Source: Thermomicrobium sp. CFH 73360 (GTDB lineage Bacteria; Chloroflexota; Chloroflexia; Thermomicrobiales; Thermomicrobiaceae). Taken from it: DNA of 62,084 nt. Under the pieces are notes generated by a model. That model was not told where the DNA came from and made no database searches. It worked only from the letters and a program-made list of their open reading frames with translations. The position numbers were made by a program, and so were the translations under genes. The stretch covers positions 1 through 62,084 of the forward strand of contig NZ_JAMSLS010000009.1 in the NCBI RefSeq assembly GCF_023806465.1, given 5' to 3'. Positions 51,598-62,084 of the stretch are shown here, piece after piece. Positions within the stretch are counted from its first letter, which is position 1; the number at the start of each line of letters is the position of its first letter.

Positions 51598-52647
51598 CTA
51601 CGAGACTGAAGCGGCGGCGGTCTTCAGCACAGCCTCGCGCAGTCCTTTCATGTATCCTATGGCAAAGAGACGCCCGAGCATCATGTACCCTGGCTCGGTG
51701 TTCGGCTCGCCCTCCATCGTTGGTGCGTGGTCTGGCCGCATCACGCCTTGGAAATGAATCTCGTAATAGGCTTTCATCGCTTCATACATGTCGGTTTGTC
51801 CGTCATCGTGGAAGGTCTCAACGAACTGTGTCGGGCCACCGCGCACGTCACGGAAGTGGACGAAGTGAACCTTGTTTTGTCGGCCGAAATGTCTAATCCA
51901 GTGTGGGACGTCGACACCCATGGTTGAGATTGTGCCCTGGCAAAAGGTCAACCCATGTGCAGGGCTCGGGTAGAGGTCGAGCGCTCGCTGCAGTGCCTCT
52001 GGTGTGATCAGGATTCGTGCGATCCCGCGCAAGGATGGAACAGGGGGATCATCGGGGTGGAGGGCGAGCTGGACGCCAGCCTCCTCAGCGACTGGAACGA
52101 CCGCTTTTAAGAAGTATTCGAGGTTCTGCCAGAGCCGTTCTGCCGGAATTTCGCCGTAGACTGTCGGGCCTGCTCGTTCCATAAGTTCGTGGTCATAGCT
52201 CGTGACGAGTGCTCCACCGCGTGTCGGCGTGGTCGTCGAGGTGCGTGCCCAGTTGATCACGGCCATCCAGTTCCAGCACCAGACCGGAATTCCGAGTTTG
52301 CCCATATTGCGAATGAGCGTGATGACCCATTCGATCTCCTCATCGCGACCGTCCAGACCGAGCCGGGCACGGTGCATCGGTGGGGAGGCCTCGATGACCG
52401 AGACGGTGATCCCCGCCTCACGGAAGCGTTGCACCATGAGTAGGAGAGGCATGAAATCCCAGGGACGATATTCCGGCGGTGGCACGTCGTGCGGCACAAC
52501 GGGCTGAGGTACCCCTGGTGGGTTCGATGCCTGATGTCCTCCCGCAACGTGGAATGGCAAAGTCGTGACCGCATGTGTGACACCCAACTGCAATGCCAGT
52601 TTCCAGCGCTCATTGGGCCAAGGAGGAAGGATCAGGGCGAGTTCCAT
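51598..52647 (-). CDS. uxuA: Mannonate dehydratase
   Basis: This is a 349-aa TIM-barrel enzyme dehydrating D-mannonate to 2-keto-3-deoxygluconate. Motifs: VIEASPPMHRARLGLDGRDEEIEWVITLIRNMGKLGI, NWMAVINWARTSTT, LALHPDDPPVPSLRGIARIL, GLTFCQGTISTMGVDVPHWIRHFGRQNKVHFVHFRDV, and GVMRPDHAPTM. ATG 52647 has GGGGGA just upstream; ATG 52659 includes that SD. It is divergent from an SDR that may feed it. Confidence 0.93.
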   Translation of the reverse strand: MELALILPPWPNERWKLALQLGVTHAVTTLPFHVAGGHQASNPPGVPQPVVPHDVPPPEYRPWDFMPLLLMVQRFREAGITVSVIEASPPMHRARLGLDGRDEEIEWVITLIRNMGKLGIPVWCWNWMAVINWARTSTTTPTRGGALVTSYDHELMERAGPTVYGEIPAERLWQNLEYFLKAVVPVAEEAGVQLALHPDDPPVPSLRGIARILITPEALQRALDLYPSPAHGLTFCQGTISTMGVDVPHWIRHFGRQNKVHFVHFRDVRGGPTQFVETFHDDGQTDMYEAMKAYYEIHFQGVMRPDHAPTMEGEPNTEPGYMMLGRLFAIGYMKGLREAVLKTAAASVS

Positions 52648-52988
52648 AGTATCCCCCATTCATTTCGCAATCGCCGAGACCATTGTCGCCCAGAAGACGC
52701 GTATGCGGAAGATACCCCCTCTGTTGCGTCCGACGAATTGTTGGGGTGGATGGCTCCGACCGCGCGTGACTGTGACTGGGGGTGCATCGGGTGTCCTGTT
52801 GTGGGGGTTACGAGCGTCCTTCTCAATGGCCCTCTGGCTACCCGTTGCGAGATCTCTCAAGTTGTTGGCCTGTTTAAACGATCTCAGCACCGACGGTACA
52901 GATGGCATAGAGAGGGACTACTCGTTGTGCTGCGATCACGCGATACTGCGTCCTCGGAGAGGGATCGTGACGAAGGGAGGATGAAGGG
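52648..52988. other. Divergent promoter region of uxuA and the SDR gene
   Basis: About 340 nt between two genes transcribed away from each other. It should hold both promoters and perhaps a sugar-acid regulator site, but no confident -35/-10 pair or palindrome was found by eye. Confidence 0.4.
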
Positions 52989-53774
52989 GTGGGACGGTTA
53001 GATGGAAAGCGTGCCCTTGTCACCGGGGCTGGGATGGGGATCGGCCGTGGCATCGCACTGGCACTCGCTGCGGAGGGAGCTGCGGTAGCGCTGCACTATG
53101 CTCACAGCCGTGAAGGAGCAGAGGCGGCAGTTGAGGAGATCCGTCGGAATGGTGGCCAGGCGGTGGCGCTCGGTGGAGATCTCCGCTCAGTGGCAGAGTG
53201 TCGGCGCGTTGTTGACGAGGCAGCCGCAGCGCTTGGTGGTCTTGATATTTTAGTTAACAATTCGGGGGTGACGCGCGCGCGATCATTTCTGGATTTCCCG
53301 GAGGAGGTCTATGAGGAGCTCTTTGACCTGAATATGCGTGCGACTTTTTTCTGTGCTCAGCAGGCTGTGCGTCATATGCTGGAACGCGGTAGTGGGGCAA
53401 TCCTGAACATCACCTCGATTCACGGTGCTGCAGGATTTCCGCGGCATGCGGCATACGCGGCGACGAAGGGGGCGATCATTGCCTTCACCCGGTCGCTTGC
53501 CATCGAACTGGCGCCGCTCAGAATTCGGGTCAATGCGATTGGGCCTGGGCTGATTGAAGTGCCACGATACTTCCAGATTCCCGGGTATGCGACGGAACGA
53601 GGGAACCAGATGGTACCATGGGGACGGGTTGGTCGGCCAGAGGACGTTGGAAAAGCGGCGGTTTTTCTCGTTTCGGATGACGCGGACTTCATCACTGGCC
53701 AGGTGTTGTTTGTGGATGGCGGTACACAGGCGCGGATGGGGCTGTGGTGGGAGCAAGGCGAGACACCGCAGTGA
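52989..53774 (+). CDS. Short-chain dehydrogenase/reductase (possibly mannonate oxidoreductase)
   Basis: This is a 261-aa classical SDR: TGAGMGIGRG (12-20), NNSG (90-93), catalytic S143, Y156, K160 (NITSIHGAAGFPRHAAYAATKG) and the C-terminal DADFITGQVLFVDGGTQARMG. Divergent pairing with uxuA suggests reduction of fructuronate to mannonate or a related sugar-acid step; this is inference. The start is GTG after GGAGGATGAAGG. Confidence 0.85.
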   Translation: MGRLDGKRALVTGAGMGIGRGIALALAAEGAAVALHYAHSREGAEAAVEEIRRNGGQAVALGGDLRSVAECRRVVDEAAAALGGLDILVNNSGVTRARSFLDFPEEVYEELFDLNMRATFFCAQQAVRHMLERGSGAILNITSIHGAAGFPRHAAYAATKGAIIAFTRSLAIELAPLRIRVNAIGPGLIEVPRYFQIPGYATERGNQMVPWGRVGRPEDVGKAAVFLVSDDADFITGQVLFVDGGTQARMGLWWEQGETPQ

Positions 53775-53857: not shown

Positions 53858-53867
53858 GAAAACTCAG

Positions 53868-53941
53868 CGGAAGCGACGGGATTCGAACCCGCGATCTCGG
53901 CCTTGACAGGGCCGCGTGTTAGGCCTCTACACCACGCCTCC
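53868..53941 (-). tRNA. tRNA-Asp (GTC)
   Basis: The acceptor GGAGGCG/CGCTTCC (one G-U pair), anticodon arm CGGCCCTGTCAAGGCCG, T-arm GCGGGTTCGAATCCCGT and G73, an aspartate identity base, support the call. CCA is not encoded. Confidence 0.94.
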
Positions 53942-54232: not shown

Positions 54233-55951
54233 TCAGGAGCGAAGTGCGCGAGTAGACTCCTGCACCCGACGGAGGATCATCGTGGCCTCCGCTTCTGTGG
54301 CGAGTCGGGGACGGTGATAGTCCTCAATGATGACCGGAAGCAGTTCGTAACGCATGAGATCAGAGTTGCGGAACCAGAGGTGGAGAATCAGACCTTGCTT
54401 CGTCTCGGGTGACCACTCTTGGTCGAAAACAAAATTGCCGAGCGAGTAAAAGATTGGGCGACCACGATACCATTCGACCCCCTGGACCCAGTGGGGGTGT
54501 GATCCGACGACCAACGTGGCGCCGGCGTCGATGGCTAGGCGGGCAATTTCCCGCTGGAACGCGGTCGGGACGAGCGTGTACTCCACGCCCCAATGGAAGA
54601 ATGGAATCACGATCGTCGCCTGATTTGCAGCGGCACTGATAGCGTGCTGGATGAGCTCGGGATCAAGTGGCGCAGTCCCCGGTGACTCATCGGTCGCGCC
54701 ATACCAGTCAGCAGAGACACCATCAAAGCCCAGCAGTGCAACGGTCGATGTCCGAGCACCGAGGATGGCAGGTTCAAGTGCGCTTTGGATGTCGACCCCT
54801 GCGCCGAACGAGGCGATTCCGGCCGCGGCAAGGGCCTCTTTGGTGTCCTGTAGTGCCAGCCAGCCGAAATCCATGCTGTGGTTATTTGCGAGGCTGACCG
54901 CGTCAATCCCAGCGAGCTGCAGCCCGGCAAGTGCATCCGGATAGGAGAGGAAACGAAGCGTGTAAGGATCTTCCGGGGGAGGGTACCGTCGGGTGAGCGC
55001 GCATTCGAGGTTCGCGATCGTGAGATCGGCCCACGACAGTTCAGTCGCGATGTGGCGGAAGGGGGCCTGCCAGTCGCGGCGTGCGATCATGACGCGGTGG
55101 ACTGTTCGGCCGAGAATGATGTCGCCAGCGACGGTAATGGTGGTAAAGGTCGGGTGAGGGAGCGGTTCGGGTGGCAGGCTGTCGATGGGCAAGAGGTGGG
55201 TAGGGCCGTCGAGGACGAGCCACTCGACAAGTTCGGGGACCTGGGATGCAATGCCGGGAGAGCGGAAGAGATCTCTCCCGTCGACCGATAAGACACGAAG
55301 GGATGCTGTAGTGGCATCGGGTTCGATCAGAGCGAAGAGGCCGAGGCTGGTCAACCGAGTGAGTGCAGCGACATCCGGGACGCGCCTGTCCGCTGCCGTG
55401 AGCTGATAGCCATACTGCTCGACCGAGACGCGGAGGACCGGGAGATTCTCTGGATGACCGAGTTCATGCCAGTTGCGAATCGTACCGTTGATGAGTGCGC
55501 GGAGTGCATCGTGCGGTAGGCTGCGCACGAGATTCTCGTGCGTGGTGACGGGGACGAACATTCGCCCACCGATCACATATGCCGCCGGGGTGCCAACGGT
55601 GGCGTGGAGGTGGAAAAGGGCATCGCGCGAGGTGGTCAAGCGAAGCGACCAATGACGGGGAAGCGTCGCTTGGAGTCGGGCAAGCCAATGTTGGGCTTGT
55701 CGCGCCAGCGTCGGTGGCAGGTCAGGGACATGGATCGTCACTGTGGGACTGGCAAGTGCTCGGAGGGGCCGGTCGGCTCGCGGGTGCAATGGTGGGTGGG
55801 TCGGCGTCGGTGACGGTGTGACCTGCTCTGAAGAACGTCGTGGAGCGGGTTGGCAGGCAAGCAAGGACGAGGCGAGCGCGAGAAAGCCACGTCGGGGGAG
55901 ACGTCTGCGGTGGTCAGCCAACCAGTGGAGAGCATCCGAACTCCGCTGCAT
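54233..55951 (-). CDS. CapA-family lipoprotein with extra binding-protein-like domain
   Basis: This is a 572-aa protein. A twin-Arg region and lipobox (LPRRGFLALASSLLAC, Cys ~33) precede a Pro/Thr linker. Residues ~70-270 look like a phosphate-type periplasmic binding fold (ALINGTIRNWHELGHPENLPVLRVS). Residues ~280-560 are the CapA/PGA_cap metallophosphatase-like domain: VAGDIILGRTVHR, IANLECALT, VSLANNHSMDFG, PFFHWGVEYT, VVGSHPHWVQGVEWYRGRPIFYSLGNFVFDQ. The family is linked to polyglutamate capsule export; the fused N-domain is unusual. Confidence 0.85.
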   Translation of the reverse strand: MQRSSDALHWLADHRRRLPRRGFLALASSLLACQPAPRRSSEQVTPSPTPTHPPLHPRADRPLRALASPTVTIHVPDLPPTLARQAQHWLARLQATLPRHWSLRLTTSRDALFHLHATVGTPAAYVIGGRMFVPVTTHENLVRSLPHDALRALINGTIRNWHELGHPENLPVLRVSVEQYGYQLTAADRRVPDVAALTRLTSLGLFALIEPDATTASLRVLSVDGRDLFRSPGIASQVPELVEWLVLDGPTHLLPIDSLPPEPLPHPTFTTITVAGDIILGRTVHRVMIARRDWQAPFRHIATELSWADLTIANLECALTRRYPPPEDPYTLRFLSYPDALAGLQLAGIDAVSLANNHSMDFGWLALQDTKEALAAAGIASFGAGVDIQSALEPAILGARTSTVALLGFDGVSADWYGATDESPGTAPLDPELIQHAISAAANQATIVIPFFHWGVEYTLVPTAFQREIARLAIDAGATLVVGSHPHWVQGVEWYRGRPIFYSLGNFVFDQEWSPETKQGLILHLWFRNSDLMRYELLPVIIEDYHRPRLATEAEATMILRRVQESTRALRS

Positions 55952-56347: not shown

Positions 56348-57328
56348 TCAGCGTGCGACTTCGACAGGTGGAGTACCGTACGTATGGAAGGTGGCAACAG
56401 TTGGCAAGCCCCATGCTTGCCCACGCTTGCGTTCGGCTTCGGTCCAGACAATCGGCTTCCAATCAGGCGCCAAGACCAGGCGTGCTCCTGGGCAACCGAT
56501 CTCGATACGATGGCCGCCTGGCTCCATAACGTAGAGGAAGACAGTCTGCTGAACGGCATGCTTGTGTGGGCCGTACTCGATACGGTACCCGAATTCAATG
56601 GCAATATCCGCAGCACGGAGGACTTCCTCACGAGTGTCCACCGCGTAGCAGACATGGTGGAAGCGTCCCCGTGCACCCGTCTGGTCCTCGGTAATAGCGA
56701 TCTCATAGCCCTTATTGTTAGCGGTGACCCAGGCACCCTTTTCTGAGCCATCATCGAAGATAATGCATTCGGTGAGTCTAAGCCCGAGGTTCTCTTGCAG
56801 GAACTTGCGAGTTGCCCGGACGTCGGCCGCAAAGATATTGATATGGTCGAGTCGGCGGATATTGCAACCACGTGCCGGGAACCGGGAAGCTTGATTCTTC
56901 AGTGCCGGCTTCGTCTCCGGTGTCGGCTGGTACCATTCAACCTCCCACAAGAGTTCGCCGATGTGTCCGTCGGGTGTCCGGAAGCGATAGGCCGGGCCGT
57001 GGCCGGCGTCGCCATCAATCCAACCTAAACCGAGCCCTGTACGCTCAAGCATTGCCACGCGTCGTTGCAGTGCCTCCGGCGAGCTCACGCGGTAGGCGAA
57101 GTGCTCCATTGCCGGCACCGGGCCAGCAGTAAGTTTGAGCGTGTGGTGCGCGTAATCGTCCCACGCGCGGAGATACACGGCATTTCCACGTCGTTCACTC
57201 ACCGTCATCCCGAGATAGTCCACGAAGAAACGCTCGCTCTCCTGGAGGGTCGGAGTAAGCAGTTCGAGATGAGCGAGATGAGCCATATCGCAGCTTGGTT
57301 CACCGATGTAAAGTGTCACGTCGTGCAT
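56348..57328 (-). CDS. VOC-fold extradiol ring-cleavage dioxygenase (catechol 2,3-dioxygenase type)
   Basis: This is a 326-aa protein with two VOC repeats. Iron ligands fit H162 (RLDHINIF), H224/H225 (RFHHVCYAVDTREEVLRAADI) and E276 (GGHRIEIGC). These enzymes open dihydroxylated rings next to the diol with O2. Start at 57328 after GGGGAGGTAAGGAA. It is the last gene of a leftward run with aldolase, GalB-like hydratase and metallohydrolase genes, pointing to aromatic acid catabolism. Confidence 0.88.
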   Translation of the reverse strand: MHDVTLYIGEPSCDMAHLAHLELLTPTLQESERFFVDYLGMTVSERRGNAVYLRAWDDYAHHTLKLTAGPVPAMEHFAYRVSSPEALQRRVAMLERTGLGLGWIDGDAGHGPAYRFRTPDGHIGELLWEVEWYQPTPETKPALKNQASRFPARGCNIRRLDHINIFAADVRATRKFLQENLGLRLTECIIFDDGSEKGAWVTANNKGYEIAITEDQTGARGRFHHVCYAVDTREEVLRAADIAIEFGYRIEYGPHKHAVQQTVFLYVMEPGGHRIEIGCPGARLVLAPDWKPIVWTEAERKRGQAWGLPTVATFHTYGTPPVEVAR

Positions 57329-57365
57329 TTCCTTACCTCCCCTGCTCTCGGACGTTACGCTTACC

Positions 57366-58034
57366 TCACTGCTTTCGTTCTACGACGACACGCAACCCAT
57401 GAAGGTCGTACGTCAGCTCCCCAGCTTGCAGCCGATCACGGAGACGTGCCTCTCGCTCGGCACGAGCGCGCGCACTCTCGAGGACGGATGAGACGCGTTC
57501 ACGTGCTACGACAACTGCGCCGTCGTCGTCCAGCACGATGATATCGCCAGGCTTGATCTGTGCTCCGCCGACGACCACTGGTACGTCGATATCACCGATC
57601 GTCTCTTTTGTTGCACCGCGGACTCGGATGAAGCGTGTCCACACAGGAAGGCCCATCGCGCGAAGTTCGTCAACATCGCGCACTGCAGCATCGACAAGGA
57701 GTGCTGCTGCACCACGGACTTTCGCTTGGATCGCCAAAAGTTCCCCAACAAGTGCGACCGGTTCGGGTTCCGGCATCGTGATGACCAATACGGCGCCCGG
57801 GAAGACGCGTTCCATGACGGCATGAACCATAAGGTTGTCTCCCTGACCACAGAGCACGGTCAACGCCGGGCCGGCGACACGTTGCCCGGGAGTAATCGGA
57901 ATGAGTGGGAGATCAATCAGTCCCTGACGACCGGAAGCCTCATAGACGGTGGCGACGCCGAGCTCACTGAAGGCCTGGCACGCCTCGGTGAGCACTGGAT
58001 CTTCGATGGCACGCTCTTCTGCTCGAGTCATCAA
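57366..58034 (-). CDS. RraA/HMG-CHA aldolase family protein
   Basis: This is a 222-aa RraA-like fold. GVATVYEASGRQGLIDLPLIPITPGQRVAGPALTVLCGQGDNLMVHAVME and the GAAALLVDAAVRDVDEL motif (metal-binding Asp region) match 4-carboxy-4-hydroxy-2-oxoadipate aldolases (LigK/ProA/GalC). That reaction gives pyruvate and oxaloacetate, the end of the protocatechuate/gallate meta route. It lies 20 nt after the GalB-like gene. The RraA regulator of RNase E is the alternative but unlikely here. Confidence 0.82.
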   Translation of the reverse strand: MMTRAEERAIEDPVLTEACQAFSELGVATVYEASGRQGLIDLPLIPITPGQRVAGPALTVLCGQGDNLMVHAVMERVFPGAVLVITMPEPEPVALVGELLAIQAKVRGAAALLVDAAVRDVDELRAMGLPVWTRFIRVRGATKETIGDIDVPVVVGGAQIKPGDIIVLDDDGAVVVARERVSSVLESARARAEREARLRDRLQAGELTYDLHGLRVVVERKQ

Positions 58035-58054
58035 CGTCCTCCGATTCCAGGCGC

Positions 58055-58786
58055 TCAGCCGTGACCGAGGAGTTCACGGGCGACGAGCGGTGTGACGCGT
58101 TGGAATGCCTCGGCATAACGAATGTCCTTGATGCCCGAAATGCGGCGTGCATGGTTGGCTCGTCGTTCCGCAAGTTCGGCATAGTAGCGCTGAAGGTACT
58201 GCTGCGAGGCCATGACCTGCATTGCGGCTAGTTTCTTTTCGTAGACCGGTGTGATGTCCACAAAGATATTGGGAACGAAGCCGCACAACTCGGGCTGGTG
58301 CGGCTCGAAGTAGTACAGCGGTGGGGGCTCCACCGTCGCAAAAGCGCTGGCGACGCCGGCACCAGAGGAGAGAAGGCGAGCACGTTGGACGGCCTCGTGT
58401 GCGACCGGATGATCAGGATTAAAGGGATCCACTGGGGTATGGGTAATGATCGCCTCAGGGCGGAAATCTCGAATCAGTTGGGCTAGCCGTTCCGTCGCCT
58501 CGCGGTCCACCTCGAGCGGATAGTCTCCAAGATCAAAGCAAAGGAAGCGTGCACCGAGCGCGTGGGCTGCTTGTTCGGCCTGTTCGTGGCGGATGGCTTT
58601 CACGCGTTCGATCGTCTGGCCCGGTTCCTTCCAGAGTTCACCGGACTCGCCGCGTTCTCCGTAGGACAGCGCGAGCACAGTGGCTTCACCGCCATTGGCC
58701 GTGACAAGGGCGATGACTCCAGCTGCTCGCCAAACGAAGTCGGCAGCATGTGCCCCGACGACGAGTAGGCGTTGAACCCCAGTCAT
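58055..58786 (-). CDS. 4-oxalomesaconate hydratase, GalB-like (PIG-L/LmbE family)
   Basis: This is a 243-aa LmbE-fold protein. The N-terminal GAHAADFVWRAAGVIAL replaces the usual AHPDDE metal motif of deacetylases and resembles GalB, a hydratase of the gallate pathway. HTPVDPFNPDHPVAHEAVQRAR supplies further metal ligands. The start overlaps the upstream metallohydrolase gene by 4 nt. Between that gene and the aldolase, hydration of 4-oxalomesaconate fits the context. A sugar deacetylase is the main alternative. Confidence 0.83.
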   Translation of the reverse strand: MTGVQRLLVVGAHAADFVWRAAGVIALVTANGGEATVLALSYGERGESGELWKEPGQTIERVKAIRHEQAEQAAHALGARFLCFDLGDYPLEVDREATERLAQLIRDFRPEAIITHTPVDPFNPDHPVAHEAVQRARLLSSGAGVASAFATVEPPPLYYFEPHQPELCGFVPNIFVDITPVYEKKLAAMQVMASQQYLQRYYAELAERRANHARRISGIKDIRYAEAFQRVTPLVARELLGHG

Positions 58787-59712
58787 TGCTCCCTCCCAGT
58801 GGCGAGTCGGACGGTATTCCGCACGGCCATCGTATGGATCTCCTCTTCGCTGAAACCTGCTTCGAGCAGACGGTCAACAAAGAGTGCCAATCCGTCTTCG
58901 ACGGGCGGATTGTCTGGTTGGCCGAGGTCAGTGCTCAAGACGACGCGTTCTGGGCCGACGGCGCGAATGTGAGCGAACGCCGTTTCCCAAAGGACTTTGC
59001 CGCTGTAGAGCGGGGTGAAGCAGTGCTCCAGATAGGCGCCCATCTCTGCAAGCCTGACCTGATCCTCTGCCGTGAGGGCTTGGGAGGGGAAATCGGGATG
59101 GGTGACGATGATGTGGCGCACACCCTCCTCACGGGCCGCTTGAACGACGGCAAAGATCTCGTCACGACCCAGGTGTCCTGTGGCTAGGACCAGACCATGC
59201 CGCGCGATCAGACGGAGGACGGCACGGAGCTCTGGGACGACGTCGCCGTCGGGTCCAACGACGTCAACGGGTGGCACGTCAAAGCCAGTCTCGCGCATCT
59301 CTCGCTGGAGACGTGCCCAATATGGTAGTTTCGCACCAGCCAGCGCCTGTTGGAGATGTCGTCGTTCATTCGCAGCGTCTACAGTGGGGAGCCAGACAAG
59401 CCGTGCTCCTTCTCGGGCCGCGATCTCGACAGCGAGGGGGTTGAGACCACCGACTGCCCGGTTGAGGGTGAGAGACCCCAGAACTTGGACACCCGGGACA
59501 GCCGCGCGCACGACAGCAGCGCGCTCGGCGGTCGGGACGTAGTGAGACTTGATGACATATCCAGCAAGGCCGACGTCAAGGAAGCGACGTGCCAGTGCAA
59601 TGTCGTCGATACGCCGCGGCATGACGTCGGGTCCAGAGTGGACGTGGAGATCGTACGCCCCACGAACGAGTTCCCGCGCCCGTGGCGATGGAACCGGGTG
59701 AACGCTTGTCAT
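58783..59712 (-). CDS. Amidohydrolase-like metal-dependent hydrolase (DUF6282-like)
   Basis: This is a 309-aa TIM-barrel-like protein. The metal motif is YDLHVHSGPDVMPRR (~19-34), and later candidates are KSHY, LATGHLGRDEI, IIVTHPDFPSQ and VVLSTDLGQPDNP. It resembles uncharacterised amidohydrolase-superfamily members. Coupled by a 4-nt overlap to the GalB-like gene, it may act as a lactonase or decarboxylase in the same pathway; the reaction cannot be read from sequence. Confidence 0.75.
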   Translation of the reverse strand: MTSVHPVPSPRARELVRGAYDLHVHSGPDVMPRRIDDIALARRFLDVGLAGYVIKSHYVPTAERAAVVRAAVPGVQVLGSLTLNRAVGGLNPLAVEIAAREGARLVWLPTVDAANERRHLQQALAGAKLPYWARLQREMRETGFDVPPVDVVGPDGDVVPELRAVLRLIARHGLVLATGHLGRDEIFAVVQAAREEGVRHIIVTHPDFPSQALTAEDQVRLAEMGAYLEHCFTPLYSGKVLWETAFAHIRAVGPERVVLSTDLGQPDNPPVEDGLALFVDRLLEAGFSEEEIHTMAVRNTVRLATGREQ

Positions 59713-59808
59713 CGCCTGTACCTTCCGTCCTCTCGTTCATCACCGCTCGGACCGGTCGGTCGTGGCGGAGGGTGAGGCACTGACGCAAGACCGGAATCAA
59801 CAAGGAGG

Positions 59809-59814
59809 ATTATA
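59809..59814 (-). promoter_or_regulatory. Candidate -10 element for the aromatic operon
   Basis: TATAAT on the minus strand, ~97 nt upstream of the metallohydrolase start and just after the terminator of the upstream substrate-binding gene. No good -35 is present at 16-18 nt, so an activator may be needed. Confidence 0.35.
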
Positions 59815-59850
59815 GCATGCTCAGAAGGAAGAATTTACGTCTGAAGACAC

Positions 59851-59896
59851 AAAAGGGGCAGGCCAGCCAGAGAGGCGAAGATTCTGGCTGGCCTGC
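59851..59896 (-). terminator. Terminator of the ABC substrate-binding gene
   Basis: A 13-bp perfect stem GCAGGCCAGCCAG/CTGGCTGGCCTGC with a 13-nt loop, followed on the minus strand by CCCTTTTG. It lies 15 nt past the stop codon. Confidence 0.8.
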
Positions 59897-59910
59897 GACG
59901 AGCGTTCGCC

Positions 59911-61077
59911 TCAGAGTTGCTTGGCTGCGTTCTGGACGAAGCTGAAGTCGGCCAGCTGATCAACGGGAATTGTCTGCTGGATCTTGCCGCGTTGCTTCCA
60001 GAGCTGCTGTGCTTCCTCCAGTTTGGTGAGATCGAAGGTGCCGTCTTCAGAGACACCAGGCCAGGTCATCTGCTCGTAGAGCTTGTCATCCTTGAGCGGT
60101 GTCCGATTCTTGAGAATCTGCACGACCTCAGCGCGTGCCGCCGGATCCTTTAGCGCTTGGAGGTAGTAACGTGCTCCCTTGAGATATCCGACGAGAAATG
60201 CCTCCAGCAGTGCGCGATCCTTGAGCATTGGGGGGCCGACAACGATCACCGAGATGGGGAAGTTATCGCCGACAATGTCGACGATCTGATCACCGGCCAC
60301 AATTGGGACAGCCGCACCGAGTTGCTTCGTCGCGATCGTCGCATAGGGTTCGACGAGTTCAGCGGCCTCCACCGCGCCGTTCTGCAGGGCTGTCGGCATG
60401 TCGGGGAGGCGGATCAGTTGCATTTTGATGTCATCGAGAGAAAGCCCGCCCGATTCCAACACCTTCTTGAGTTCGAGCAAGTCGATGCCGGCGTCGCTTG
60501 GCATCGCCAGGGTGCGGCCGCGCAAGTCTGCCACCGAGCGGACGCCTTGATCGTACAGCTGCTTCGTCACAGCATAGGCGTGAAACACATTCCCGCGCCG
60601 CAGTGCGCCTTCACCGGCGACAATGGTCACCTCGACCCCCTGTGTGCGGGCGTTGACCAGTGCCGCCTGAATGGCACCGCTAAAGAGATCGAGCTGGCCG
60701 ACGGCTACCAACGGAATAACTTCGCCGGGCGTGCCTTGTGTGGTAACCAGCTCCACATCCAGTCCAGCTTCCTTGAAAAAGCCCTTTTCAACTGCGATGA
60801 AATTCCCGGCTTCTTCGGTGGCCAAGGCAACGCGCATCTTGAGCTTGCGAGCCTGGACGACTGTTGGCGCGGGTGTTGGGGTAGCGGTAGGCGCAGCAGT
60901 CGGGGTGACGGCGGGAGCCGTGGTCGGCGTTGTTCCCATGGTTGCAGCAGTCGGTGGAGCGGGTGCAGCAGTTGGTGTCGGCTGCTGGCCAGCGCCACAG
61001 GCAGCAAGAAGACTACTCGATACCGCTCCGGCGACAGCTACAAGCAGAGTCCGGCGAGTGAACTTCCGCATATTCAT
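59911..61077 (-). CDS. ABC transporter substrate-binding lipoprotein (NMT1/SsuA-like)
   Basis: This is a 388-aa protein. A Tat-like signal (FTRRTLLVAVAGAVSSSLLAAC) puts a lipid-anchored Cys at ~27. A Thr/Pro/Ala linker (~30-75) follows, then an NMT1-type domain: RVALATEEAGNFIAVEKGFFKEAGLDVELV, GQLDLFSGAIQAALVNA, DLRGRTLAMPSDAGIDLLELKKVLE. Permease and ATPase genes are not in the window. Context suggests an aromatic acid ligand, but taurine/nitrate/thiamine-precursor types share the fold. AGGAGGG precedes the ATG. Confidence 0.88.
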   Translation of the reverse strand: MNMRKFTRRTLLVAVAGAVSSSLLAACGAGQQPTPTAAPAPPTAATMGTTPTTAPAVTPTAAPTATPTPAPTVVQARKLKMRVALATEEAGNFIAVEKGFFKEAGLDVELVTTQGTPGEVIPLVAVGQLDLFSGAIQAALVNARTQGVEVTIVAGEGALRRGNVFHAYAVTKQLYDQGVRSVADLRGRTLAMPSDAGIDLLELKKVLESGGLSLDDIKMQLIRLPDMPTALQNGAVEAAELVEPYATIATKQLGAAVPIVAGDQIVDIVGDNFPISVIVVGPPMLKDRALLEAFLVGYLKGARYYLQALKDPAARAEVVQILKNRTPLKDDKLYEQMTWPGVSEDGTFDLTKLEEAQQLWKQRGKIQQTIPVDQLADFSFVQNAAKQL

Positions 61078-61136
61078 GTAACAACCCTCCTCACGTTGAC
61101 GGAGAGACTCCCCAACTGCTCACTTACACCGCCGAT

Positions 61137-61156
61137 CACACGACGATAATCGTGTG
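61137..61156 (-). promoter_or_regulatory. Candidate operator upstream of the substrate-binding gene
   Basis: A perfect 7-6-7 palindrome, CACACGA-CGATAA-TCGTGTG, lies 60 nt upstream of the substrate-binding protein start. The 20-nt size suits a dimeric regulator (GntR, IclR or TetR-like). No regulator gene is in the window. Confidence 0.5.
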
Positions 61157-61756
61157 AAATGTGCCGCAAGAGCGCGCTGTTTCGGACGAATGTAGCCGTA
61201 CTGGCGTCACACAGCGCTCCGAAGCTCGTGGGAGTACCGCTTACAGCTCAATATGCGTATCGGCTACGAGCGAGAGTACAAGCGTGTACCGTAGGTCGCT
61301 GGATATGCCGAAAATACACCATGACTGATTGATGGCTGCCGTATCTCTATTGATAGTCTTTCCCACAGGTACTTCATTCCCACCCAGTAACAGTGTGTTC
61401 AGATTATCCGAACGCGGAGCATCTGCCATGATTCACCTCTATGCTAATCACACGGCTGTAGCGAGTCAAGATCTTCCTTTCATGGGTTATGGGCCCGGCT
61501 GTGGCATGGAACATTCGCGTTGTTGGTCATTTTCTTGCAGATGGCAGGGGGAAAGGGGAGACATCTGGACTTGTTACGAAGCCGAACTAGCTGCGTGGAA
61601 GAGGTGAGTCTCAAGCCAGGAGTGCTTGGGAAGGAACAGAAACCTAGCATGCCGCCTCATGTAGGGAAAAACCCGTCTTAGAGCGAAATGGGCCGGAAGC
61701 AGGGACCGTGGTTGTGCCCAACTACACAGATCAACTGCATAGTGTGGGCAGAGCAG

Positions 61757-61791
61757 AAAAGGATCCCGGGCGGCGCAGCCGCCCGGGATCC
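61757..61791 (-). terminator. Strong terminator of the O-demethylase gene
   Basis: A 14-bp perfect stem GGATCCCGGGCGGC/GCCGCCCGGGATCC with a 3-nt loop, followed by TTTTCTGC on the minus strand, lies 18 nt after the coding stop. Confidence 0.88.
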
Positions 61792-61809
61792 TAGGAATGG
61801 TGTTGGATC

Positions 61810-62084
61810 TCAGCTGGAGCGACGCGCCCGAGCCACTTGCTCCCGGTAGCGGCGAGCCGGCTCGGCGTACGGCGCCGGTCCAACTGTCACCCAGACCTCG
61901 GTCTGCACACGCCCCTCCACCGCCGGCTTGCCCGATCCGCCATTCGGCTCGCCCCACACAATCCGCAGCCGTGTCCCTTCCTTGGCGTACTCTTCCTTGA
62001 TCGTTGCAAGCGAGAGAACCCGCTCCTCGTTGGAGCTGAAGCCGGTCCACATCGAGAAGCCGACGACCTCACCGGCATCGTTGA
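61810..62084 (-). CDS. LigM-type aromatic O-demethylase, C-terminal fragment
   Basis: The frame enters from beyond the window edge and encodes NDAGEVVGFSMWTGFSSNEE, then SLATIKEEYAKEGTRLRIVWGEPNGGSGKP, VQTEVWVTVGPAPYAEPARRYREQ. This matches the end of GcvT-fold, tetrahydrofolate-dependent demethylases such as LigM (vanillate/3-O-methylgallate) and DesA (syringate). The N-terminal part is missing, so substrate preference cannot be judged. Plain aminomethyltransferase GcvT is the alternative. Confidence 0.75.
   Translation of the reverse strand, partial: NDAGEVVGFSMWTGFSSNEERVLSLATIKEEYAKEGTRLRIVWGEPNGGSGKPAVEGRVQTEVWVTVGPAPYAEPARRYREQVARARRSS

Follow-up and report, generated by a model that had tools for sequence, protein, structure and literature searches.

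A probable catabolic locus for methoxylated aromatic acids in Thermomicrobium, with a vicinal oxygen chelate-fold dioxygenase carrying tyrosine in place of a catalytic histidine

The window analysed here is the whole of a 62,084-base contig (C38; NZ_JAMSLS010000009.1) of the 3.06-Mb genome of Thermomicrobium sp. CFH 73360, which is 99.7% complete; the locus has its closest named relatives in Thermomicrobium metagenome-assembled genomes. Six features fill the final 5.7 kb of the contig, all on the minus strand and in the order and place in which a first-pass annotation of this DNA had described them. In our judgement, the locus is rather likely to encode the lower part of a pathway that breaks down methoxylated aromatic acids, in which gallate-type ring cleavage would be carried out by an enzyme of the vicinal oxygen chelate (VOC) fold. 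The pathway logic is known and the enzyme at the key step would be different. The same idea in the first-pass annotation, that demethylase, GalB and aldolase form one route with a VOC-fold ring cleaver, gains support from family assignments and gene linkage.

In the proposed route, a LigM/DesA-type enzyme would move the O-methyl group to tetrahydrofolate (THF), and MetF and formate-THF ligase would recover it. The product, a trihydroxy- or dihydroxybenzoate and most probably gallate, would be opened by the dioxygenase, which has a tyrosine at a catalytic histidine position (Tyr type), to 4-oxalomesaconate (OMA) or its immediate precursor. A DUF6282 protein would supply the step before GalB, either hydrolysis of 2-pyrone-4,6-dicarboxylate (PDC) or isomerisation of OMA. 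GalB would then hydrate the product, and a 4-carboxy-4-hydroxy-2-oxoadipate (CHA) aldolase would cleave it to pyruvate and oxaloacetate. The sequences themselves show which genes are present, how the operon is laid out, the families of its proteins, the residues that are conserved and the comparative linkage; the substrate, the bond cleaved and the reaction of DUF6282 are inferred. The features are as follows.

61810..62082, minus: LigM/DesA-type tetrahydrofolate-dependent O-demethylase, C-terminal 90 aa
61760..61792, minus: terminator-like hairpin of 15 pairs, 12 of them GC, following the demethylase (terminator scan)
61441..61469, minus: weak, possible promoter of the five-gene operon (promoter-like sites are no commoner than chance)
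59911..61077, minus: NMT1/THI5-type (SsuA-like) ATP-binding cassette (ABC) substrate-binding lipoprotein (PF09084, E=1.9e-20; TIGR01728 below cut-off)
58783..59712, minus: DUF6282, predicted metal-dependent enzyme of the amidohydrolase superfamily (PF19799, E=2.4e-69)
58055..58786, minus: GalB-type hydratase of 4-oxalomesaconate (2-keto-4-carboxy-3-hexenedioate, KCH), PIG-L superfamily
57366..58034, minus: CHA aldolase
56348..57328, minus: two-domain VOC-fold ring-cleaving dioxygenase, Tyr208 for the catalytic His

Results

The dioxygenase belongs to a widespread Tyr-type clade

The dioxygenase scores 310.4 bits against the catechol 2,3-dioxygenase model TIGR03211, for which the cut-off is 320.2. 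A Tyr-type relative from Thermus oshimai passes the same model at 332.2, therefore the cut-off fails to separate Tyr and His types. In an alignment to the homoprotocatechuate dioxygenase (HPCD) of B. fuscum, the iron ligands H155, H214 and E267 are kept as H162, H225 and E276, and equivalents of N157, W192, H248 and Y257 are also kept, but Tyr208 stands at the position of His200. We take His200 to be catalytic, and this role and the site numbering are presumed from general knowledge of HPCD. It is a conserved second-sphere residue, mutation of which slows the reaction (PMC5291488). The tyrosine is invariant over 16 diverse members of the clade, and Tyr-type enzymes have the C-terminal motif ER(K/R)(K/R)GQAWG. 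The change from His to Tyr had been missed in the first-pass annotation.

In a quick tree of sampled relatives with 65 rows, a branch (Shimodaira-Hasegawa-like approximate likelihood ratio test, 97) has the 56 rows with Tyr on one side, amounting to one change. The collection was scanned with two family sequence patterns, with the Tyr site outside both, and the sample leans to close relatives. The clade spans at least five phyla (Chloroflexota/Thermomicrobiota, Deinococcota, Bacillota, Acidobacteriota and Pseudomonadota) and includes an Agrobacterium plasmid on which the dioxygenase is accompanied by an OMA tautomerase and a tannase, so the variant is not special to this organism. The paralogs of the present genome keep His; two lie at C1:404-414 kb and a third at C12:106 kb. 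Four other Chloroflexota dioxygenases (L226, L228, L230 and L233) have His yet carry part of the GQAW motif, with no GalB at these loci; they are possible intermediates.

PDB entry 9wgj is 51% identical to the dioxygenase, with the same Tyr and the same C-terminal motif, and its best plasmid match by tblastn is 56%. A search of the open-access literature for a paper on 9wgj returned three chance string matches only. The intradiol name of this entry is at odds with its extradiol VOC fold.

No LigAB/GalA-type gallate or protocatechuate dioxygenase was recognised in the genome by model search. The sole LigB-fold (PF02900) protein, at C1:701539, matches no class III ring-cleavage model, and it was ruled out as the actual ring cleaver on this basis. 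As a matter of chemical reasoning, cleavage of gallate between C4 and C5 gives one product whether it is counted as extradiol or intradiol, and the usual His could be dispensable.

The hydratase and aldolase match gallate-pathway enzymes

By family assignment, GalB and the aldolase match the gallate-pathway enzymes of Pseudomonas putida. The best PDB match of the hydratase is P. putida GalB (5cgz, 211 bits), followed by a deacetylase at 35 bits, which rules out the sugar deacetylase that the first-pass annotation had weighed as another identity. Its metal-site motif is AHAADFVWRA, compared with AHSADFVWRA in GalB, whereas three other PIG-L proteins of the genome have AHPDD. Against the CHA aldolase model NF006731 the aldolase scores 214.5 bits, above the cut-off of 179; it has 3noj as its best PDB match (175 bits) and lies under the cut-off of the stricter TIGR02798 (196.2 against 304.5). 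RraA, which had also been considered, is excluded by a score of 69.5 bits against the cut-off of 136.

Gene neighbourhoods separate the Tyr type from catechol enzymes

Among the loci examined, GalB and CHA aldolase occur together with Tyr-type dioxygenases only, while DmpG and acylating acetaldehyde dehydrogenase (AcDH) are neighbours of the His type only, including the pair of paralogs that this genome carries at C1:404-414 kb. The linkage of GalB and aldolase with the Tyr type recurs in Chloroflexota, Deinococcota and Pseudomonadota. On the Agrobacterium tumefaciens plasmid pAt the order is GalB, Tyr-type dioxygenase, LigK, GalD and tannase, with GalD (4-oxalomesaconate tautomerase) confirmed by NF033377; the four pathway enzymes are repeated in Rhizobium etli plasmids, A. 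vitis and Roseibium. The Thermus oshimai and Meiothermus clusters hold the dioxygenase, DUF6282, GalB, aldolase and a DUF1932 dehydrogenase, with PobA nearby. In Bradyrhizobium, a cog3618-like amidohydrolase, GalB, aldolase, an NMT1-like protein and the dioxygenase are found.

An ordinary catechol 2,3-dioxygenase lying incidentally beside GalB and the aldolase is therefore very improbable, although such an enzyme would fit a TIGR03211 score just below the cut-off here and above it in T. oshimai. The Tyr in place of the catalytic His is invariant, the catechol-pathway genes sit with His-type paralogs elsewhere in the genome, and the GalB and aldolase linkage is repeated across three phyla. Catechol hydrolase or decarboxylase genes, which the first-pass annotation had held to speak against its proposal, are absent next to the window dioxygenase, as are DmpG and AcDH. 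Ordinary catechol meta-cleavage was rejected for its wrong neighbours and the Tyr for His.

A second cluster on contig C11 of the sister genome G001 (L053, L181) carries an aldehyde dehydrogenase, an HPCD-like His-type dioxygenase, two LigM-type genes, a branched-chain-type ABC transporter, a 3-hydroxyisobutyrate-dehydrogenase-like protein, an HpcH-type aldolase and a second GalB-like protein (62%). This GalB-like protein lies about 8.6 kb from the His-type dioxygenase, with no CHA aldolase of the present type in the cluster. The Tyr-only rule therefore holds for GalB and CHA aldolase together, not for GalB-like proteins alone. The C11 cluster looks like a separate demethylation route.

DUF6282 and the step before GalB

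The predicted structure of DUF6282 (pLDDT 84.6) is an amidohydrolase TIM barrel with Z of about 20 to phosphotriesterase-type amidohydrolases, and Foldseek matches of the model include LigI entries (4d8l, 4di8 and 2ffi) and cog3618 entries. By its modelled fold, DUF6282 is a hydrolase. Over 14 sequences the invariant residues are H23, H25, K55, H57, H180, H205 and D262, which plausibly make up a metal site.

After removal of three duplicate contigs, 38 distinct Tyr-type loci with GalB were counted: 10 had DUF6282, 13 a cog3618-like amidohydrolase, 9 GalD and 6 none of these, never two together. Further Chloroflexota agree with this exclusion, with DUF6282 at L227 and L229 (another class) and GalD at L225 (G188). 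Because the three families never co-occur in these clusters, it is suggested that they share one slot before GalB. PrpF-family GalD/LigU (PF04303) was found in 0 of 21 genomes of the order, the present genome included.

DUF6282 is therefore a candidate PDC hydrolase or a candidate substitute for the OMA tautomerase, the latter reading having mutual exclusion with GalD as its sole basis. The first-pass annotation had proposed that this metallohydrolase may replace LigI/LigJ. The LigJ part falls away, as GalB fills that step, and its mutual exclusion with GalD and with cog3618-like amidohydrolases points to the slot before GalB, that of an OMA tautomerase or a PDC hydrolase. No paper naming DUF6282 was found in the open-access literature.

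The O-demethylase and one-carbon genes

Since the contig stops at 62084, the 90-aa frame at its end aligns with no more than the C-terminal part of two models for syringate/vanillate O-demethylases (NF047633, E=1.7e-23; NF047885, E=7e-22). Sister genomes supply the full demethylase and the one-carbon genes. G001 holds a complete demethylase of 466 aa, 85% identical to the window fragment, in an upstream unit of metF-fhs-ligM (a MetF-like reductase, formate-THF ligase and then the full demethylase). This enzyme passes the LigM model NF047885 (588.6 against a cut-off of 580) and lies under the cut-off of the DesA model NF047633 (639.9 against 800).

In the present genome, metF-fhs stands at the end of contig C33, with fhs at 218694-220358 of 220485 and 127 bp left, and the C-terminus of a second demethylase copy opens contig C12 (C12:3-227). 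The N-terminal part of the window demethylase was sought in the assembly and not found; C33 stops just before a copy and C12 starts inside another. This is consistent with contig breaks that fall inside a repeated demethylase gene. This genome has at least five other LigM/DesA-type genes or fragments (C23:57425-58810, C34:90847-92253, C35:69126-70532, C34:14311-15712 and C12:3-227), of which one is apparently frameshifted and another is truncated where its contig ends. Beside the copy on C23 lie a gene of the tannase/feruloyl esterase family and one for a thiamine-pyrophosphate enzyme.

The demethylase is also close by in other genera. In G009 it lies 32 bp upstream of DUF6282, in G013 it is followed by ABC-transporter genes and then the same four genes, and in a third genus (G007) it directly precedes the dioxygenase.

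Operon layout and surrounding genes

The pathway genes are tightly packed, with an overlap of 4 bp between DUF6282 and GalB, and gaps of 20 bp between GalB and the aldolase and 37 bp between the aldolase and the dioxygenase. The spacing from the binding-protein gene to DUF6282 is 198 bp. The order DUF6282-GalB-aldolase-dioxygenase is kept in two further genera. In this species the demethylase is probably transcribed separately, because a 732-bp gap and the strong terminator-like hairpin lie between it and the remaining five genes. Three terminator-like sites were found where 4.5 are expected, and this hairpin is far longer than the other two. A genome of the same genus that is 99% complete (G004) lacks GalB of this type (best match 31% identity); therefore, judged by gene content, the cluster is accessory within the genus.

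Next to the operon, at 54233-55951 of the window, there is a protein of the PGA_cap family (572 aa) that partially matches MslH, a lasso-peptide epimerase model (E=1e-22). The stretch 51598-53774 holds a minus-strand gene for mannonate dehydratase (UxuA) and, divergent from it on the plus strand, one for a glucose-1-dehydrogenase-like short-chain dehydrogenase/reductase, a pair probably involved in sugar-acid catabolism. A tRNA-Asp lies at 53867-53941, some 2.4 kb beyond the downstream end of the operon.

Discussion

Which compound is opened by the dioxygenase has to be weighed from the company that it keeps. Three observations favour gallate over protocatechuate: on the Agrobacterium plasmid this type of dioxygenase is found with GalD and tannase, a tannase-family gene adjoins another LigM-type gene of this genome (on C23), and the Thermomicrobium operon has no dehydrogenase.

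Cleavage of protocatechuate, with DUF6282 acting on PDC, is an unlikely but serious alternative for this locus, and protocatechuate is a possible substrate above all in Thermus. In the T. oshimai and Meiothermus clusters, PobA and the DUF1932 dehydrogenase accompany this type of dioxygenase, DUF6282, GalB and the aldolase. The amidohydrolase fold of DUF6282 is like that of the PDC hydrolase LigI, and cog3618-like amidohydrolases replace DUF6282 in Bradyrhizobium. However, no DUF1932 dehydrogenase was found in genomes of the genus Thermomicrobium, and in gallate-type clusters, which carry GalD and tannase, this type of dioxygenase occurs with no amidohydrolase. The DUF1932 dehydrogenase was also seen with Tyr-type dioxygenases in Rhizobiales and Thermaceae at L149, L151, L157, L068, L137, L142, L147 and L087.

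Another possibility is direct cleavage of 3-O-methylgallate to 4-carboxy-2-hydroxy-6-methoxy-6-oxohexa-2,4-dienoate (CHMOD) or PDC, in which case the demethylase would act once, on syringate, and DUF6282 would be the CHMOD/PDC hydrolase. Such a route is known in SYK-6, DSM 12444 and NGC7 (PMC12314914), the operon includes a hydrolase, and the sister-genome demethylase scores high against the DesA model, although below the cut-off. Nevertheless, this is improbable, as the same demethylase passes the LigM cut-off and would carry 3-O-methylgallate to gallate, and tannase, an enzyme that sets gallate free, is found beside a relative of the dioxygenase.

Several observations weigh against a gallate route fed by demethylation. 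In this genome the demethylase of the locus is seen as no more than a 90-aa fragment. The mutual-exclusion counts come from related lineages, so that the loci are phylogenetically non-independent and the pattern is suggestive. Many Tyr-type loci, mostly of Bradyrhizobium, are without GalB within 10 kb. The 4-hydroxybenzoate 3-monooxygenase in the Thermus and Meiothermus clusters points to protocatechuate there, and the recurrence of the DUF1932 dehydrogenase in many related clusters is not explained by a pure gallate route. Finally, 9wgj, a crystal structure of the Tyr type, bears the title 'catechol 1,2-dioxygenase', and this could point to another activity.

Beyond this locus, the widespread Tyr-for-His VOC subfamily annotated as catechol 2,3-dioxygenase could be the gallate-type ring cleaver of many bacteria, with DUF6282 as a third non-homologous solution before GalB. 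We put this forward tentatively, as a proposal slightly more apt to fail than to hold. No description of a VOC-type gallate dioxygenase was found in the open-access literature, where absence is a weak argument. If the proposal is true, a second, unrelated fold performs the gallate/OMA ring opening so far ascribed to LigAB-type enzymes, many genes now called catechol 2,3-dioxygenase are misnamed, and DUF6282 gains its first function. The presence of Tyr in place of His also makes a question on the mechanism of extradiol cleavage directly testable in natural enzymes. According to a 2020 study, no aerobic, thermotolerant pathway for the degradation of syringyl lignin had been elucidated (PMC8027834); the locus of this thermophilic Thermomicrobium is a candidate for such a pathway.

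Comparison with known systems

Excerpts of a study on SAR202 Chloroflexi report many ring-cleaving dioxygenases, 4-hydroxy-4-methyl-2-oxoglutarate aldolase and 4-oxalomesaconate hydratase, and suspect 'novel pathway variants' (PMC6123686). The phylum is the same, but those excerpts neither describe an operon nor assign the gallate step to a VOC enzyme, and a His-to-Tyr observation is absent from them.

In the known routes, ring cleavage of gallate leads to OMA, which is tautomerised by GalD/LigU, hydrated by GalB/LigJ and cleaved by LigK/GalC, while PDC from other routes is converted to OMA by LigI hydrolysis (PMC12314914). The P. putida gal pathway (GalA, GalD, GalB and GalC) has the GalB and GalC steps and the intermediates OMA and CHA in common with the route proposed here. 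However, GalA is a type II enzyme of the LigAB fold whereas a VOC-fold enzyme is found here, and here DUF6282 is present, GalD is missing and a THF-dependent demethylase feeds in.

The syringate/vanillate route of Sphingobium SYK-6 (DesA, LigM, DesB/LigAB/DesZ, LigI, LigU, LigJ and LigK) shares LigM/DesA demethylation with genes for one-carbon recovery, a LigK-type aldolase and passage through OMA. Its three ring cleavers are all type II (PMC3962378), and those of NGC7 resemble LigAB (PMC12314914). The hydratase is LigJ in SYK-6 and GalB here; the Thermomicrobium operon has neither LigI nor LigU, and a search of the genome gave no gene of the PrpF family (LigU/GalD).

With the type I, VOC-fold catechol and homoprotocatechuate 2,3-dioxygenases, the present enzyme has in common the fold, the iron ligands and the four further active-site equivalents. 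It differs from them in Tyr208 for His200, in its C-terminal GQAWG motif and in having OMA-pathway genes rather than DmpG and AcDH as neighbours.

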